In this document: piece by piece, positions 3,737 through 25,626 of the stretch | Layout of the letters: each line of letters begins with the position of its first letter | Numbering within the stretch: position 1 is the first letter of the stretch | Origin: a virus | IMG/VR virus record: IMGVR_UViG_3300044999_000023 | Coordinates: 1-25,774 of that record | Length of the DNA: 25,774 bases | Reading direction: 5' to 3' (one strand) | The notes under the pieces: model-generated | Databases searched by the model: none | Seen by the model: the letters and a program-made list of their open reading frames with translations, nothing else | Told to the model about the DNA's origin: nothing | Program-made: the position numbers and the translations under genes

Positions 3737-3765
3737 TGACACAGGGTTGAGCAGACCACGTATCA
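3737..3765 (-). repeat. Type I intergenic hairpin, copy 1 (11-7-11)
   Basis: Minus strand TGATACGTGGT, a 7-nt loop, then ACCCTGTGTCA. As RNA, 10 of 11 positions pair, two as G-U. The leading TGA is the stop of the 28-aa gene. Unlike the other copies, no ribosome site follows; the HNH promoter comes next, which suggests the endonuclease displaced the original partner gene. Confidence 0.75.
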
Positions 3766-3849
3766 GTTCCAAACGTGTAGCATTTCCATTGCGAGCAGCG
3801 CGAACAATACTGACGCTGCAAACGCGAGCGCCGCTAAAAAGTTTTTCAT
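3763..3849 (-). CDS. 28-aa membrane micro-protein
   Basis: ATG at 3849 shares its A with the preceding TGA (TGATG), so re-initiation is likely. The peptide is MKNFLAALAFAASVLFALLA followed by MEMLHVWN, a single hydrophobic span with one N-terminal Lys. Its TGA forms the first bases of a type I hairpin, as for the larger genes, which supports it being real. Function unknown; it resembles the many tiny phage membrane peptides. Confidence 0.6.
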   Translation of the reverse strand: MKNFLAALAFAASVLFALLAMEMLHVWN

Positions 3850-4208
3850 CAGCGTAAACAGCCTTTCTGCGGGTCAATCACGTTGTACGGCTCTAAGGTC
3901 GGAGGGAAGGATAATAGTTCTTGGCGATGTTCCCAAATCAGACATCGGGCCGCAATGCGATGGCCTACTCTGGTTAGAGTAACGTCAAGCATTTCGCGGG
4001 GAGTATACATAGGAGAGTATTCATAGGTTATTAAACCCTGCGCTTCTAGAAAATGAACCATCGGCCAAATTCTCGATGCACAACAACGGTATACACCCGA
4101 CATCTTCTTACCTACAACGTGCTTGTACGCATCTTCGCTATCAATGGCGAGCAGAGCACGAATTAGGAACGCCTGACGTGCGGGTGTGAGATGGTTGTCT
4201 TGTCTCAT
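3849..4208 (-). CDS. Hypothetical protein, possible winged-helix fold, 119 aa
   Basis: Start ATG at 4208 with GGAGGAAGG upstream; the frame extends further but without a ribosome site. The middle reads VYRCCASRIWPMVHFLEAQG then LITYEYSPMY and LDVTLTRVGHRIAARCL, which follows the pattern of a winged helix (recognition helix, wing, then a 'LT..G' helix) seen in PadR/MarR-like proteins. This is a shape argument only. The upstream hairpin is degenerate. The downstream 28-aa gene is coupled by TGATG. Confidence 0.7.
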   Translation of the reverse strand: MRQDNHLTPARQAFLIRALLAIDSEDAYKHVVGKKMSGVYRCCASRIWPMVHFLEAQGLITYEYSPMYTPREMLDVTLTRVGHRIAARCLIWEHRQELLSFPPTLEPYNVIDPQKGCLR

Positions 4209-4224
4209 TTGTCCCTTCCTCCCT

Positions 4225-4252
4225 TGATACGCGGTGTCGTTCTCACGTGGAA
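4225..4252 (-). repeat. Type I intergenic hairpin, degenerate copy
   Basis: The second arm ACCGCGTATCA is well conserved and is followed by GGGAGG, but the first arm reads TTCCACGTGAG and only about 6 of 11 positions pair. The upstream stop is 34 nt away instead of inside the arm. It looks like a decayed copy. Confidence 0.5.
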
Positions 4253-4285
4253 GCCGAAGAAGCACAGTATTTTTCGGAGCATGAG

Positions 4286-4474
4286 TCAATCCTTTTCGAG
4301 TGCCGCGTAACACTTCTTTATGAAGTGCGGCATTGTGTTGTTAAGCAAGCCAACTTTCACTTCGTCATGGCGAGGAAACCAGCCGTTACATAGGGAACAA
4401 TAGGTAAACGGTGTGCGCATGTCGATTGGGGCGTTAACGCTAGAGTGCTCGTACTTAGTCCCTTCATGTTCCAT
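4286..4474 (-). CDS. Small Cys/His protein, 62 aa
   Basis: ATG at 4474 has a perfect AAGGAGG with a 5-nt spacing directly after a type I hairpin. It contains YCSLCNGWFPRHDEV and a later KKCYAAL, so one CxxC plus His and Cys could bind one zinc ion. No family recognised. The compact size and intact translation signals argue for a real gene. Confidence 0.7.
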   Translation of the reverse strand: MEHEGTKYEHSSVNAPIDMRTPFTYCSLCNGWFPRHDEVKVGLLNNTMPHFIKKCYAALEKD

Positions 4475-4486
4475 AAAATCCTCCTT

Positions 4487-4515
4487 TGATACGTGGTGTC
4501 GTGAACCACGTGTCA
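4487..4515 (-). repeat. Type I intergenic hairpin, copy 2
   Basis: Minus strand TGACACGTGGT, loop TCACGAC, ACCACGTATCA; 10 of 11 positions pair (one C-A mismatch). The TGA is the stop of the gene ending at 4513 and AAGGAGG starts right after the second arm. This is the clearest example of the stop-hairpin-Shine-Dalgarno unit. Confidence 0.85.
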
Positions 4516-4764
4516 GTTAAGTTTGATACCCTGGGCGTTGCAAGCCTCAACGAAATCGACCGAAGTAAATTGCGACAGGGCTGTACTGGAAGGTGCTGCA
4601 CACAGATTTAGCGCTGACACAATGCGTGCTGCGTAGGCTTCCGCAAATTGAAAGATTCTTTTGCGCTGGTATTCTGGTGTCGGATCGTCTGCTAGTTCGT
4701 AGGATAGAAAATTGTTAATTTCGCCTCGCGGTAGCTCGCGGGTATAAAACTCTTCTGCCGTCAT
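4513..4764 (-). CDS. Hypothetical protein, 83 aa
   Basis: ATG at 4764 follows AAGGAGAAGTGAAA; the upstream extension to 4842 lacks a ribosome site and overlaps the hairpin and the upstream gene. The protein begins MTAEEFYTRELPRGEINNFL and has a helical middle (YQRKRIFQFAEAYAARIVSA). It ends IKLN with the TGA inside the hairpin. No domain is recognised; predicted soluble and mostly helical. Confidence 0.7.
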   Translation of the reverse strand: MTAEEFYTRELPRGEINNFLSYELADDPTPEYQRKRIFQFAEAYAARIVSALNLCAAPSSTALSQFTSVDFVEACNAQGIKLN

Positions 4765-4778
4765 TTTCACTTCTCCTT

Positions 4779-4807
4779 TGACACGTGGTCTCGTTAACCG
4801 CTGGTCA
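4779..4807 (-). repeat. Type I intergenic hairpin, copy 3
   Basis: Minus strand TGACCAGCGGT, loop TAACGAG, ACCACGTGTCA; 8 of 11 positions pair, with both ends of the stem intact. The TGA is the stop of the gene ending at 4805, and AAGGAG follows at once. Confidence 0.75.
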
Positions 4808-5062
4808 GCCAGCGTCTTTGTCACACGATCTGCGGTATGCAAAAGACTGCTCCTTCGGCAATACCGTAAGATTTTCCGACATGCCCCAAGTCGAGACGGC
4901 GGCTTTGGGTGGTGCGCCCGAGAGCGGATCCGCGAAGGTTTCCGAATGCCCTCGGCGTCCGTCGCAGCTAAAGTACCCGTCTTCGTGCCGCCACTCCAAT
5001 GCAGATATGGTGCTCGATGTTCTTTCTATTTGTTTACGACAGTTTTTGCAGATCACGAGCAT
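4805..5062 (-). CDS. Small zinc-binding-like protein, 85 aa
   Basis: ATG at 5062 with GAAAGGA upstream; a longer frame to 5233 overlaps the neighbour's coding region and is rejected. The start MLVICKNCRKQIERTSS and the later YFSCDGRRGH give CxxC...C...H, consistent with one structural zinc. The C-terminal half is low in features. Function unknown. Confidence 0.65.
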   Translation of the reverse strand: MLVICKNCRKQIERTSSTISALEWRHEDGYFSCDGRRGHSETFADPLSGAPPKAAVSTWGMSENLTVLPKEQSFAYRRSCDKDAG

Positions 5063-5079
5063 TTTGATTTTTTCCTTTC

Positions 5080-5108
5080 GGACTAGCGGTTTCGGTAACC
5101 GTGCGTCA
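5080..5108 (-). repeat. Type I intergenic hairpin, copy 4 (weaker)
   Basis: Minus strand TGACGCACGGT, loop TACCGAA, ACCGCTAGTCC; 7 of 11 positions pair, including the four next to the loop. The geometry is exactly 11-7-11 and the TGA is the stop of the gene ending at 5106. Confidence 0.65.
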
Positions 5109-5390
5109 GTTTTTCGTTTCGTAATAGCAATCGGGCTCACATGCCCCATTATGCGAACGTCTGTGGTGGCCCGTAACACGCTCTTTACCATTCGCCAGTT
5201 CCTTCGCGCGCAGCGCCTCTTGCGCAATTTCACTGAGTCCTAGGTAATCTCTCCATTTCTTCGCAAATTTCTTGCGCGGCATCTCGCTATGGAGGTCTCC
5301 TAGGTACTCGCGGAATTTTTCAATTTCATCCAGGTCGTGTCGTGAAAGTAGCTTCACTTTTCGGCCCCACACTGGAATACGCTTTGCCAT
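5106..5390 (-). CDS. Basic hypothetical protein, 94 aa
   Basis: ATG at 5390 lies 5 nt after GAGGGG. The sequence MAKRIPVWGRKVKLLSRHDL is very basic; the middle has charged helices (DEIEKFREYLGDLH, RKKFAKKWRDYLGLSEIAQE) and the tail has NGACEPDCYYETKN with a Cys pair. It may be a nucleic-acid-binding protein, but no family is recognised. Confidence 0.7.
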   Translation of the reverse strand: MAKRIPVWGRKVKLLSRHDLDEIEKFREYLGDLHSEMPRKKFAKKWRDYLGLSEIAQEALRAKELANGKERVTGHHRRSHNGACEPDCYYETKN

Positions 5391-5409
5391 GTTTGCCCCT
5401 CTCTTTTTC

Positions 5410-5438
5410 TGACGCACGGTTCATAGAACCCTACATCA
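5410..5438 (-). repeat. Type I intergenic hairpin, copy 5 with covarying arms
   Basis: Minus strand TGATGTAGGGT, loop TCTATGA, ACCGTGCGTCA. The arms differ from the consensus TGACACGTGGT at several positions, yet 10 of 11 still pair (two G-U). That points to selection on RNA structure. Here the upstream gene stops at a TAG inside the arm (5433-5431) rather than at the TGA. Confidence 0.78.
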
Positions 5439-5667
5439 TTTGTCGCGCATTGCTGTATGGCTCAAACTCCCAATTGCATTCGCCGGCGTTAACCAGTTGC
5501 GCGTTCTCTAAGCACTCTTGGTGCCAGTGGTGGTGCTGAAATTCGTCGTCATACACTGAGCGTTCGCTAACGTATTGCTCTCCCTTCGGGATTGCTTCGC
5601 CGCACCAGATACAGCGGTGGACCTTCCGCGCGGTCGGTTTCGTTTGAGACAATAGGGTATAGCTCAC
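5431..5667 (-). CDS. Zinc-binding phage protein, 78 aa
   Basis: GTG at 5667 overlaps the preceding TGA as GTGA and has AAAGGA upstream; the ATG at 5712 would lie inside the neighbour. It carries CIWCGEAIPKGEQYVSERSV followed by YDDEFQHHHWHQECLENA. This CxxCg..I..Ge.Y...(s)..........H..C layout is common in small phage zinc proteins that I recall as 'hypothetical' or HNH-adjacent. It is expected to bind one zinc. No catalytic motif is evident. Confidence 0.75.
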   Translation of the reverse strand: MSYTLLSQTKPTARKVHRCIWCGEAIPKGEQYVSERSVYDDEFQHHHWHQECLENAQLVNAGECNWEFEPYSNARQMM

Positions 5668-6122
5668 TCGCTTTCCTTTTCTTCGGTAGGCGTCCAAGTG
5701 CACGTGAGCCACAAGCCACTAACCTCGCGGCTAATTGCGCGACAGCCTTCGAGCTGGCCAGGTTCCCAGATCATTGTCCCGTCGGCCAGTTCGCGGTCAT
5801 GCGGCGCCCAGCCGTGCACGCATGACATCGATACTTCGATAACCGGATCGTCGGCGCCGATGTCCCGCGCGTCATCCGCGAATTCCTCAAGCGCTTCCTT
5901 GAGGTCGCTTTTCGCTTGCTCGAATATCGACGAATATGCGCAGTCGCTTTCATAATCGGAAAGAATGTCATCTTCCTCGGATGTGTACGGCGCGAATGAG
6001 TCAAGATCGAAGTCGCTTTCAAGGTCATCGACTTCGGACGCCAGGTTCTCCGCGGTATCCTTCTTGTCGTTGAGCGCTCCCGAGATTGCATCTTGCGCGT
6101 ATTGCTCTAAGTCCCTTGCCAT
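5664..6122 (-). CDS. Acidic protein, 152 aa
   Basis: ATG at 6122 has GGGAGGG just upstream and follows a promoter by about 20 nt. The first half is strongly acidic (SEVDDLESDFDLDSFAPYTS, EEDDILSDYESDCAYSS, KEALEEFADDARDIGADD). The second half is more globular with VSMSCVHGWAPHDRELADGT. Strongly acidic early phage proteins often act as DNA mimics or host-enzyme inhibitors; that is only a hypothesis here. First gene after the internal promoter and coupled to the zinc protein downstream. Confidence 0.8.
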   Translation of the reverse strand: MARDLEQYAQDAISGALNDKKDTAENLASEVDDLESDFDLDSFAPYTSEEDDILSDYESDCAYSSIFEQAKSDLKEALEEFADDARDIGADDPVIEVSMSCVHGWAPHDRELADGTMIWEPGQLEGCRAISREVSGLWLTCTWTPTEEKESE

Positions 6123-6145
6123 AATCCCTCCCAGGATGTGAAGTC

Positions 6146-6175
6146 ACTTTACTACGTCCGCGAACCACGTGTCAA
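6146..6175 (-). promoter_or_regulatory. Leftward sigma70-type promoter
   Basis: Minus strand TTGACA (6175-6170), 18-bp spacer, TAAAGT (6151-6146). The -35 is embedded in TTGACACGTGGTTC, nearly the same as the first arm of hairpin copy 2. Nearby, 6188-6200 reads ATAAGTCACTTAT, a 13-bp near-palindrome that could be an operator. Confidence 0.65.
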
Positions 6176-6187
6176 GGCACGTTTGTG

Positions 6188-6319
6188 CTATAAGTCACTT
6201 ATGCCCGCCTCAAGCCAGTCAGCAATGCCAGGAAAGGCCCACCTTAGTGGCAGTCCCACAGCGAATTGCAGGCGGCCTAGTCTTATAATTACTGCGAGCG
6301 GTACTAGTTCGAGTGTCAT
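6188..6319 (-). CDS. Small hydrophobic protein, 43 aa
   Basis: ATG at 6319 overlaps the previous stop as ATGA. The protein MTLELVPLAVIIRLGRLQFA VGLPLRWAFPGIADWLEAGI is largely hydrophobic and could be membrane-associated. There is no independent ribosome site; translation would depend on coupling. No family recognised. Confidence 0.45.
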   Translation of the reverse strand: MTLELVPLAVIIRLGRLQFAVGLPLRWAFPGIADWLEAGISDL

Positions 6320-6447
6320 GTTAGTAATCCAAGCAACTCGCGCCACGTGACGCAAATTGCCGCCCGCTCGGTGTCCGCGCGGCATTCGCTGCAATTGGAG
6401 TGACTCATGTTCTCCGCTAGATGTCGCTTGTGCTGTAGGCTTCGCAT
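6316..6447 (-). CDS. Small Cys-containing protein, 43 aa
   Basis: ATG at 6447 with GAGGA about 9 nt upstream, or ATG at 6408 with GGAG 3 nt upstream. The shared part reads MSHSNCSECRADTERAAICV then TWRELLGLLT, with CxxC. The stop overlaps the next ATG. Small and unrecognised; kept because of its tight fit between neighbours. Confidence 0.45.
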   Translation of the reverse strand: MRSLQHKRHLAENMSHSNCSECRADTERAAICVTWRELLGLLT

Positions 6448-6449
6448 GG

Positions 6450-6680
6450 CTATTTGTCCTCCGCGATTCTGCGGTTAGCAGGAACGCCAGGGTCAACGTT
6501 CAAAGGATGACGAACATTGATAAATTCGGGATTACGAATACCACCATGCAATTGATACCGTTGTCCGCGCCACGTCACAGACTGCCATCCCGCGTGCATC
6601 TGTGGCGTGCGCTCGATTGTCCCGATAACTTTGTAACCGTTATCGCCGTCCTTCAGCTCGATTACGTGTTTTTCTCGCAT
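6450..6680 (-). CDS. Hypothetical protein, 76 aa
   Basis: ATG at 6680 lies directly after the previous TAA (TAAATG) and 7 nt after GGGAGG. Starts MREKHVIELKDGDNGYKVIG, contains HAGWQSVTWRGQRYQLHGGI, and looks like a small beta-rich protein. No recognised family. Confidence 0.7.
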   Translation of the reverse strand: MREKHVIELKDGDNGYKVIGTIERTPQMHAGWQSVTWRGQRYQLHGGIRNPEFINVRHPLNVDPGVPANRRIAEDK

Positions 6681-6941
6681 TTAGCGTCCTCCCTTGAACG
6701 GCCGATCGAGCCAGCGTCCTACTGGCCACGTTTGCCCACTTGAGTAACAGTCTGTTACGCGCGGTCCAAGTGGATTGTTGGGCGGGAATTGCGTATTGCA
6801 GAACCATTCCCAGTCGCTTTTGTACTGTGGCGCGTAATACATGCCGTTGGGCGCGGCATGCTTTGCCCAGTCTGGGATGTGCTCTACGGTGTATCGATGA
6901 ACGTAACGTGATTTGGCTTGCTCGAAGGTAATCGCTTTCAT
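6681..6941 (-). CDS. Hypothetical protein, 86 aa
   Basis: ATG at 6941 is preceded by GGAGG about 10 nt upstream, directly after a type II hairpin. Sequence MKAITFEQAKSRYVHRYTVE continues with aromatic-rich YYAPQYKSDWEWFCNTQFPP. The pattern 'MK.ITFE.A...Y.HRYT.EH.P.W' is familiar from phage hypothetical proteins, but no function is known to me. Its end carries the ribosome site of the next gene. Confidence 0.72.
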   Translation of the reverse strand: MKAITFEQAKSRYVHRYTVEHIPDWAKHAAPNGMYYAPQYKSDWEWFCNTQFPPNNPLGPRVTDCYSSGQTWPVGRWLDRPFKGGR

Positions 6942-6964
6942 GTCTTTCGTTCCTCCGTGTGGGT

Positions 6965-7013
6965 TAGTTACCCCGCCACGTGCCAATCATGCGGACACGT
7001 GGCGCGTTAACTA
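6965..7013 (-). repeat. Type II intergenic hairpin, copy 1
   Basis: Arms TAGTTAACGCGCCACGTG and CACGTGGCGGGGTAACTA on the minus strand, with 16 of 18 positions complementary and a 13-nt loop. The first TAG is the stop of the gene ending at 7011, and GGAGG follows within about 10 nt. Confidence 0.8.
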
Positions 7014-7211
7014 GCCTTGCGCGATGTCTTTGACTACTCGAATGTTGATACCCTTCGCGTTGCCTTGGTCCGCGAGGCTCCACGAATCTCCCGCGTACGC
7101 ATCGCAGAGAATTTCAACACTCGTAACTTCGCGGCCTTCGCTATCGTGTAGACCAGTGCGGACATTGATAATGCATCCGTCCACTTCGATATGTTTCGTA
7201 TTCTTAGCCAT
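7011..7211 (-). CDS. Hypothetical protein, 66 aa
   Basis: ATG at 7211 has GGAGG with an 8-nt spacing. MAKNTKHIEVDGCIINVRTG continues HDSEGREVTSVEILCD and ends NIRVVKDIAQG; it looks like a small beta-sheet protein. The TAG stop forms the base of the type II hairpin. Not recognised. Confidence 0.7.
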   Translation of the reverse strand: MAKNTKHIEVDGCIINVRTGLHDSEGREVTSVEILCDAYAGDSWSLADQGNAKGINIRVVKDIAQG

Positions 7212-7226
7212 GTAAGTGTCCTCCGT

Positions 7227-7282
7227 CTAGTTGCTTCGCCACGTTCCAAAGGCCTAACTCGGAAACGTGGCGCGGGAACTAG
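7227..7282 (-). repeat. Type II intergenic hairpin, copy 2
   Basis: Outer stem CTAGTT/AACTAG, a 4x4 internal loop, and inner stem CGCCACGTT/AACGTGGCG. Same plan as copy 1 with diverged linkers. The upstream gene's TAG lies in the outer stem and GGAGG comes right after the second arm. Confidence 0.78.
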
Positions 7283-7473
7283 CGCTGTTTAGTGTGGCGA
7301 AAGGTTACGCGGCCGGCTTTGCTGATTCGTGGTTCCCAGGACTCCAGCACATCGCCATTGTGCACGATGCTAATCATATAAATGACTCGCTGGGCTATGC
7401 GCTTTGCTTCCTTGCGTGCGGCGGCTAACGTTTTCACGGTTACGTGGTTAGGTCCGTATGAGATGTGATACAT
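7279..7473 (-). CDS. Hypothetical protein, 64 aa
   Basis: ATG at 7473 is 9 nt after GGAGG; a GTG at 7494 precedes that site and is rejected. MYHISYGPNHVTVKTLAAAR then KEAKRIAQRVIYMISIVHNG, a beta-alpha-beta-like small protein with a basic tail. Not recognised. Confidence 0.68.
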   Translation of the reverse strand: MYHISYGPNHVTVKTLAAARKEAKRIAQRVIYMISIVHNGDVLESWEPRISKAGRVTFRHTKQR

Positions 7474-7500
7474 CGTTTGTGTCCTCCGTGTCACATTGCT

Positions 7501-7529
7501 AATCTCTCATGCGTCAAACCACGTGTCAA
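7501..7529 (-). promoter_or_regulatory. Weak leftward promoter candidate
   Basis: Minus strand TTGACA (7529-7524) within TTGACACGTGGTTTGACG, 17-bp spacer, GAGATT at 7506-7501. The -35 is perfect but the -10 is poor, so this may instead be a relic of a type I arm. Confidence 0.35.
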
Positions 7530-7538
7530 GCATAAACG

Positions 7539-7552
7539 TCACTCACGCACGT
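7539..7552 (-). promoter_or_regulatory. 14-bp motif shared with the GIY-YIG promoter
   Basis: Minus strand ACGTGCGTGAGTGA, identical to 12913-12926, where it forms most of a promoter spacer. A related ACGTTAGTGA is in the promoter at 24113. Possibly an operator for a phage regulator. Confidence 0.4.
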
Positions 7553-7707
7553 TTATTTGTGTGCGGCAGGTAATTCCTTCCCAAAGGAGTGTTACAAGGT
7601 GTAACGGATAGTTGCCATTCCTCACGCCATCTACAGTTGCCATTCCTCACGCCATCTACTACCGCAGTAGTGAGATTGCCAGCCCGAGCTGACCTATCGC
7701 CGTCCAT
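7543..7707 (-). CDS. Doubtful small gene interrupted by a 25-bp duplication, 54 aa
   Basis: ATG at 7707 lies 3 nt after AAAGGG and about 20 nt after a type I hairpin, the same arrangement as for other genes here. It starts MDGDRSARAGNLTTAVVDGV. A perfect 25-bp tandem repeat inside it shifts the frame. Removing one copy gives a 48-aa product ending EGITCRTQINVRE at 7539. It may therefore be a recently broken gene. Low certainty either way. Confidence 0.35.
   Translation of the reverse strand: MDGDRSARAGNLTTAVVDGVRNGNCRWREEWQLSVTPCNTPLGRNYLPHTNKRA
7610..7659. repeat. Perfect 25-bp tandem duplication
   Basis: AGTTGCCATTCCTCACGCCA TCTAC occurs twice head to tail (7610-7634, 7635-7659). The unit is not a multiple of three. 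No third copy is seen in the window. Confidence 0.9.
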
Positions 7708-7727
7708 TCGCCCTTTGTTTTCAATGC

Positions 7728-7756
7728 TGACACGTGGTTTAGTAGACCATAGGTCA
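7728..7756 (-). repeat. Type I intergenic hairpin, copy 6 at the start of the leftward block
   Basis: Minus strand TGACCTATGGT, loop CTACTAA, ACCACGTGTCA; 9 of 11 positions pair (one G-U). The TGA ends a frame that is open for about 57 codons rightwards but has no ATG or GTG, so the matching upstream gene may be lost or degraded. Confidence 0.72.
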
Positions 7757-8018
7757 GCCTAAGCTATTGATATCATTAGCTTGCCGGCCTTCCCCGCTTT
7801 TAGGCTTCCCGCGGCCCAGGTTTGCCCGCGGTGGCCCGCCGGCGGCCTGCAGACGACCTAGGGGAGGAGCCAACGACCCCCCGTCTGTCCTATTGGCGAT
7901 TGTCCGTGCGGCGCGCCAGGACCACAGATATTTAGGTTAGTGACGCTGCGTAAGTTACCGCAGAATCAATTCGATGGCGGGACGCAATTAACGCGTGACG
8001 CGTCACGCAACAAAGTTC
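7757..8018. other. Divergent control region without a clear gene
   Basis: It separates the leftward operon from the rightward methyltransferase unit. 7790-7915 is very GC-rich with a CCCGCGG direct repeat and a GCCGGC palindrome. A dyad CTGCGTAAGTTACCGCAG lies at 7946-7963. The leftward frame ending at 7754 has no ATG or GTG start. An origin or main regulatory region is plausible, but no iterons or AT-rich unwinding segment are seen. Confidence 0.5.
7993..8008. promoter_or_regulatory. Perfect 16-bp palindrome, operator candidate
   Basis: GCGTGACGCGTCACGC is its own reverse complement. It ends 10 bp upstream of the -35 of the methyltransferase promoter. Its half-site GCGTGA(C/G) resembles the GCGTGAGTGA motif at 7539 and 12913, so a common regulator is possible. 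Confidence 0.65.
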
Positions 8019-8047
8019 TTGACATACGTCAGTCAGCAAGGTAATCT
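8019..8047 (+). promoter_or_regulatory. Promoter of the methyltransferase unit
   Basis: TTGACA at 8019-8024, 17-bp spacer, TAATCT at 8042-8047. Transcription should begin near 8054, which rules out the in-frame ATG at 7995 as the main start. Confidence 0.75.
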
Positions 8048-25368: not shown

Positions 25369-25626
25369 ATGGACCGCATCCCCGTCGAATCGAAGCACCT
25401 CGTGAGTGTGGGCTACGAGCCCACCTCGCGGGTGCTCCATGTGGAATTCCATAATGGTGCCGTGTACGAGTACAAAGGCGTCCCCGAGCATTACTATCGC
25501 GCGGGTGCCGTGTACGAGTACAAAGGCGTCCCCGAGCATTACTATCGCGCGCTGTCCGACGCGAAGTCCTCGGGATCGGCGTTCCACAAGTACATCAAGC
25601 CGCATTTCCACGGAGCCCAAATTTGA
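25369..25626 (+). CDS. KTSC-domain protein with an internal duplication, 85 aa
   Basis: The frame MDRIPVESKHLVSVGYEPTS then RVLHVEFHNGAVYEYKGVPE matches the KTSC domain (short, about 60 aa, 'I.S.GY...L.V.F..G..Y.Y..VP'), ending GSAFHKYIKPHF. The block GAVYEYKGVPEHYYRA occurs twice in a row because of a 48-bp duplication, so the product is 16 residues longer than a normal KTSC protein. ATG directly follows the previous TAA. KTSC proteins are small and of unknown or RNA-related role (the domain is also seen fused to lysyl-tRNA synthetase); their function in phages is not known to me. Confidence 0.82.
   Translation: MDRIPVESKHLVSVGYEPTSRVLHVEFHNGAVYEYKGVPEHYYRAGAVYEYKGVPEHYYRALSDAKSSGSAFHKYIKPHFHGAQI
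25456..25551 (+). repeat. Exact 48-bp in-frame tandem duplication
   Basis: 25456-25503 and 25504-25551 are identical, starting GGTGCCGTGTACGAG. The unit equals 16 codons, so the frame is kept. Confidence 0.95.

Follow-up and report, generated by a model that had tools for sequence, protein, structure and literature searches.

An oriented intergenic element with start-side and stop-side forms, a possible gene-cassette boundary in otherwise unrelated phages

Introduction

How phages come to gain and lose, so cleanly, the small orphan genes that abound in their accessory regions is an open question. It is posed in a concrete form by a stretch of 25,774 bases that makes up a complete record of the IMG/VR database (IMGVR_UViG_3300044999_000023, hereafter the window), in whose leftward region a short inverted repeat recurs between the stop codon of one gene and the Shine-Dalgarno sequence (SD) of the next. 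An earlier reading of the sequence, here called the original prediction, regarded these repeats as RNA hairpins maintained by selection, and listed a cassette boundary among their possible roles. Is the repeat read as folded RNA or as DNA, and what does it delimit? We tentatively favor, with less than even confidence and on the strength of sequence comparison, a direction-marked DNA boundary site that would delimit cassettes of one or two genes and be used as a recombination joint. As to kind, it is best placed among the repeated intergenic elements of phages, where its separate start-side and stop-side forms are unusual.

Results

The window carries the element seven times, six copies being good and one decayed, and these lie where the original prediction had put them, the six with 11-nucleotide (nt) inverted arms about a 7-nt core. 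Read along the genes, on the minus strand, the layout is a left arm TGACNNRYGGT, the core, a right arm ACCRYNNGTCA and then the SD. Scores in bits are those of a matrix built from the other phages described below.

4779..4807, minus strand: alpha element, TGACCAGCGGT-TAACGAG-ACCACGTGTCA, 39.7 bits; its TGA ends gene 5062-4805 in phase, and the SD (AAGGAG) of gene 4764-4513 follows immediately
4487..4515, minus strand: beta element, TGACACGTGGT-TCACGAC-ACCACGTATCA, 36.0 bits; its TGA ends gene 4764-4513 and is followed by the SD (AAGGAGG) of gene 4474-4286
5080..5108, minus strand: alpha-like element, TGACGCACGGT-TACCGAA-ACCGCTAGTCC, 29.6 bits; its TGA is the stop of gene 5393-5106 and is followed by AAGGA
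5410..5438, minus strand: divergent element, TGATGTAGGGT-TCTATGA-ACCGTGCGTCA, only 14.9 bits and in the opposite orientation
3737..3765, minus strand: gamma element, TGATACGTGGT-CTGCTCA-ACCCTGTGTCA, closing the array, with the HNH and integrase genes downstream
7728..7756, minus strand: outlying element heading the leftward region, TGACCTATGGT-CTACTAA-ACCACGTGTCA; its orientation is uncertain (27.5 bits on the plus strand, 20.5 on the minus)
4225..4253, minus strand: decayed element, recognizable only by its core GAACGAC and right arm ACCGCGTATCA, followed by the SD of gene 4208-3849

Four copies had been said to end the preceding gene with an in-frame TGA in the left arm. This is clear at 4487, 4779 and 5080; the TGA at 7728 closes a 60-codon open stretch that lacks a recognizable start. 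An in-phase TAG does lie within the left arm at 5410, as proposed. The core of the gamma element, CTGCTCA, recurs unchanged in a second phage (copy G1_47726), where it likewise belongs to the final copy of the array.

The existence of a repeated family with a stop-to-SD layout is borne out by two results: ACCACGTGTCA matches the window 14 times against 6.6 expected, a count reached in 0 of 100 shuffles, and relatives occur in six other contigs. Scanning IMG/VR for the arms together with an SD returned exactly two contigs, with several copies in each, and further pattern scans extended the set to seven contigs including the window (G1, 82.7 kilobases (kb); G2, 65.8 kb; G4, 30.4 kb; G8, 13.7 kb; G9, 57.8 kb; and G10, 35.0 kb, with one copy only) and 25 aligned copies. 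All-against-all protein comparison of the seven phages found very few genes in common; the element is therefore common to distinct phages. With a leave-one-phage-out matrix at least 20 of the 25 copies score 20-41 bits, controls reaching 12.9 at most, and the best-scoring orientation agrees with gene direction, the exception being 7728. Within the window, a matrix trained solely on the other phages places 4779, 4487, 5080 and 7728 at 20-40 bits against a control maximum of 12.9; 5410 and 3737 are much weaker, neither exceeding 16 bits, and 4225 is absent from the matches listed. Unusual cores or arms account for the position of these last three, and of G1_47726, below the 20-41-bit range. Of 20 well-matched arm pairs, 19 have a 7-nt spacer, and the reversed control gave no match. 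An exceptional G4 copy, with a 4-nt spacer (TAAG), lies near record position 25433-25458 on the minus strand, inside a plus-strand open reading frame (ORF), and precedes an SD and an ATG.

Beyond these contigs, no real match to the element was found in 50,697 named phages, mycobacteriophages included, and none of the named phages is a close relative of the window. Bacterial chromosomes gave a single orthologous near-match, the locus TGACGGCAGGTTAACGAAACCTGTAATCA conserved in three Mycobacterium genomes, which looks like one orthologous chance match. An arms-only pattern was set aside in IMG/VR: outside the family contigs its matches lack both SD and core and are due to chance; they served as a negative control. 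Two IMG/VR contigs related to the window by terminase do not cover the element-bearing region, and four with TGACCRSYGGTCAAATTGACC-type repeats are clearly repetitive and unrelated to the family.

The core is asymmetric and, where recognizable, points in the direction of the genes. It comes in two main forms, alpha (TAACGAG, start side) and beta (TCACGAC, stop side), which differ in what surrounds them (n=19; these tests are post hoc, with p-values found after looking). An in-phase TGA stop is present in 9/9 beta but 4/10 alpha copies (p 0.011), and an intact left arm in 9/9 beta and 5/10 alpha copies (p 0.03), while the right arm is intact in 2/9 beta versus 9/10 alpha copies (p 0.005); SD and start follow in nine of the ten alpha copies. 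Alpha precedes beta in all seven clusters (7/7, p 0.009), and one or two genes stand between an alpha and the following beta.

The same strict orientation, stop-to-SD position and pair of gene-end forms would suit a signal at the RNA level, in which alpha acts as a leader before the SD and beta as a trailer from the UGA stop of a polycistronic mRNA. The original prediction held that pairing was largely kept and that RNA structure was selected. The 10 of 11 pairs at 5410 and 3737 are correct, and 4487 has as many, but 4779 forms 8/11, 5080 only 7/11 and 7728 9/11, so that the claim of kept pairing was overstated; several copies are weak hairpins. Across the 25 copies, 201 of 275 cells are paired, against 201.9 expected when arms are re-paired at random (p 0.3-0.7). 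An independent count on 19 copies gave 75.1% of cells paired against 75.9% in shuffles, with no excess of double changes and a covariation score of 0.116 against 0.122. The original prediction had itself named a lack of covariation as the outcome that would count against it, and a selected RNA hairpin is rejected on these values, which equal the shuffled ones.

The arms show preferences of another sort. At positions 5 and 6 there is almost no constraint; position 8, counted from outside to inside, is mostly a pyrimidine in either arm irrespective of its partner, a C-A mismatch being the commonest combination; both arms keep the R7-Y8 preference independently; and there is no preference for wobble pairs. 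Since the arms of one element pair no better with each other than with random ones, they look like separately read DNA half-sites (TGACNNRYGGT) rather than an RNA stem. An RNA signal of the proposed kind would act on ribosomes or a ribonuclease (in processing, insulation or reinitiation) through the core and a short GGU/ACC stem, not the full stem. The conserved loop-like core is indeed closed by the invariant GGU/ACC, the only pairing retained by RNAalifold, and the copy with the 4-nt spacer still stands ahead of a start. Against such a signal are the arms' lack of covariation and wobble preference, the frequent C-A at position 8, the R7-Y8 preference seen in each arm by itself, the weak hairpins and the lack of an Rfam match anywhere in the window. 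Readthrough of the TGA into the next gene was also rejected, as the distances from TGA to the next start keep no constant frame. We consider the RNA-level signal somewhat unlikely.

If the element were a joint between phages, traces of movement might be expected. Copies W4779 and G4_25663 are identical at 31/32 positions, as are G1_47515 and G2_58030; in both cases the flanking genes differ on both sides and the identity, which is between unrelated phages, stops at the element edges. G2 and G9 have one isolated block in common, 76 nt long and 93% identical, which starts within an element, the left edge of that element marking the onset of similarity, and continues into the first codons of the next gene. 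By their sequence, the islands and the block would be the trace expected from exchange at the sites; transfer of the element for some other use would look similar. The patchy spread among unrelated phages, with genes that are unrelated from copy to copy, would also be consistent with passive linkers, short sequences homogenized by general phage recombination without a dedicated binding protein, like lambdoid boundary sequences, and G2 may encode an Erf-like protein, judged by inspection of its sequence. The arms' inverted symmetry, the fixed 7-base-pair (bp) spacing and the free positions 5-6 are left unexplained by passive linkers, which we regard as improbable.

Independent half-sites could also serve a phage or host protein that, bound in short intergenic gaps, would block or adjust transcription. 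Two isolated exact half-sites in the window, compared with 0 in controls, are relevant here.

7518..7528, minus strand: half-site TGACACGTGGT standing alone within CTTGACACGTGGT, with a -35-like TTGACA inside; the first gene of the leftward operon starts about 45 nt downstream, at 7473
6164..6174, minus strand: half-site TGACACGTGGT standing alone within CTTGACACGTGGT, in the long gap ahead of gene 6122-5664; it coincides with the region's best sigma-70-like match, TTGACA-18-TAAAGT

Their overlap with -35-like TTGACA, ahead of the operon in one case and of gene 6122 in the other, favors a regulator site, but comparable isolated promoter half-sites are not above background in the other six phages. 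Identical 14-mers, AACCACGTGTCAAG (minus strand CTTGACACGTGGTT), surround them at 6163-6176 and 7517-7530, and are probably promoter or operator half-sites. Known regulator sites offer partial parallels. Cluster A stoperators are single asymmetric 13-bp sites bound by a monomeric repressor, intergenic and oriented with transcription (PMC9283540). They resemble the present element in their number, their short intergenic gaps and their orientation; the element differs in its two inverted half-sites and conserved core. ESAS, discussed below, lie between genes as inverted repeats that carry putative promoters and may be bound by a regulator (PMC11373665). In the elements themselves a consensus scan of the window found no promoter or intrinsic terminator; the one terminator-like match, at 4486-4516 on the plus strand, runs against the operon. 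Protein comparison detected no DNA-binding protein, and no repressor or regulator gene, common to the seven phages, and a plain operator would not be expected to have a conserved asymmetric core, an in-phase TGA or an alpha/beta division. A regulator site is, in our view, unlikely.

In the leftward region small orphan genes come first, and after them an HNH gene and a gene for a tyrosine integrase. Three of the orphan genes stand between consecutive elements.

4513..4764, minus strand: orphan gene of 83 amino acids, between alpha (4779) and beta (4487); both inner arms are exact inverted repeats
4805..5062, minus strand: orphan gene of 85 amino acids, between elements 5080 and 4779
5106..5390, minus strand: small orphan gene of 94 amino acids, between elements 5410 and 5080; the inner arms are exact inverted repeats

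The idea that the right arm of one element and the left arm of the next form gene-bracketing inverted repeats (exact in 3/5 window pairs, p 0.03) is not claimed, as it fails in the other phages (p 0.54) and in alpha-beta pairs (p 0.31). A zinc-finger-like gene (window 5431-5667) has a homolog in G2 (6074-6436; 65% over 57 amino acids); the G2 gene has an alpha element directly upstream, while in the window its start overlaps the preceding gene. The same operon holds a second pair of stop-to-SD inverted repeats of a different type (TAGTTAACGCGCCACGTG...), at 6962-7016 and 7227-7282, with 19-21-nt arms that are 84-86% complementary, lie downstream of in-phase TAG stops and carry CCACGT directed outward rather than inward. 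Further along, a palindrome, GCGTGACGCGTCACGC (7993-8008), precedes a rightward sigma-70-like promoter, TTGACA-17-TAATCT (8019-8047), upstream of a DNA methyltransferase gene. Two perfect tandem duplications were also seen, one of 25 nt within a weakly supported leftward ORF (7610-7659) and one of 48 nt within an ORF (25456-25551), adding 16 codons.

Discussion

The arms behave independently, the 7-bp spacing is fixed, the core is oriented, alpha and beta divide and follow in order, and near-identical copies sit amid different neighbors; all of this is observed directly. The proposed DNA boundary site would consist of two inverted 11-bp half-sites, each read separately, flanking the asymmetric 7-bp core. 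Alpha on the start side and beta on the stop side would bracket one or two small genes, and the piece from core to core would therefore be a complete translation unit of SD, ORF and TGA. Such a site might be the joint at which phages exchange cassettes, alpha being matched to alpha and beta to beta, by way of a site-specific recombinase of the tyrosine type provided in trans or through annealing of short homologies, and the two cores would preserve order and orientation. The geometry is that of tyrosine-recombinase core sites, with inverted arms of about 11 bp around an asymmetric overlap of 6-8 bp. The suggestion, made in the original prediction, that the element may be a cassette boundary is supported.

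Several points weigh against this proposal. No recombinase common to the seven phages was found: a tyrosine integrase occurs in the window only, a serine resolvase in G4 only, and neither type in the other five phages; any of the contigs could be incomplete. Many beta copies have a decayed right arm, and decay of this sort should not be tolerated at a functional crossover site. On its right side the G2/G9 block ends within a gene and not at a site, no two phages were seen to share a backbone while differing by swapped cassettes, and the alpha/beta tests rest on few copies. As no common recombinase was found, the RNA gene-end signal and the stoperator/ESAS-like regulator site are serious rivals. 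It is also rather doubtful that alpha at gene starts and beta at stops are two mutually incompatible recombination sites, by which unrelated phages swap SD-ORF-stop units in fixed orientation through double exchange, with a recombinase from the host or one that has escaped recognition.

Comparison with known systems gives partial likenesses; by the features compared, the element falls outside the attC, PeSL and ESAS families. In integrons, attC cassettes hold one gene each, have the stop codon within the site or adjacent to it, and all face the same direction. The element has a stop codon in or beside the site and a uniform direction as well, but its arms are TGACNNRYGGT, no GTTRRRY-type boxes or integron integrase were seen and, by the covariation test, the sites are not folded-strand substrates. 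The dif/pdif sites of the Xer system have two 11-bp inverted arms about a short center (11-6-11) and delimit exchangeable gene modules; in pdif the 6-bp center varies between sites and the XerC and XerD arms are unlike (PMC6449649). The 11-7-11 layout is similar, but the 7-bp center is conserved and the arms are alike, and a candidate link to Xer is one of geometry only. PeSL elements of T4-like phages, an early promoter plus stem-loop (promoter-terminator), are described as intergenic and have been proposed to shuffle small genes between phages (Arbiol 2010, Comeau 2014, as cited in PMC4503421). As far as that citing account describes them, they share with our element the intergenic position and the proposed role; neither their promoter nor their terminator is recognizable here.

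The start-associated sequences (SAS/ESAS) of cluster K mycobacteriophages, named by the original prediction as the closest analog, are a fair one in style, and differ in sequence and geometry. They recur between genes of the non-structural region, ahead of start codons, and their function is unknown; ESAS, which accompanies SAS (GGGATAGGAGCCC), has 15-17-bp arms, a variable spacer and a SigA-like promoter (PMC3203893, PMC11373665). Both they and our element are imperfect inverted repeats with a better conserved left arm, intergenic and ahead of start codons. Unlike ESAS, the element has 11-bp arms of a different sequence, a fixed asymmetric 7-bp core, an in-phase stop codon in the arm and two gene-end types; with no promoter inside it and no similar DNA in named phages, it does not belong with the cluster K ESAS.

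For small accessory genes, an oriented element whose two forms mark gene starts and gene stops, and which brackets single genes in phages that are otherwise unrelated, provides a concrete, searchable mark and a testable mechanism of exchange. If it acts on RNA instead, it would represent a new class of gene-end signal.

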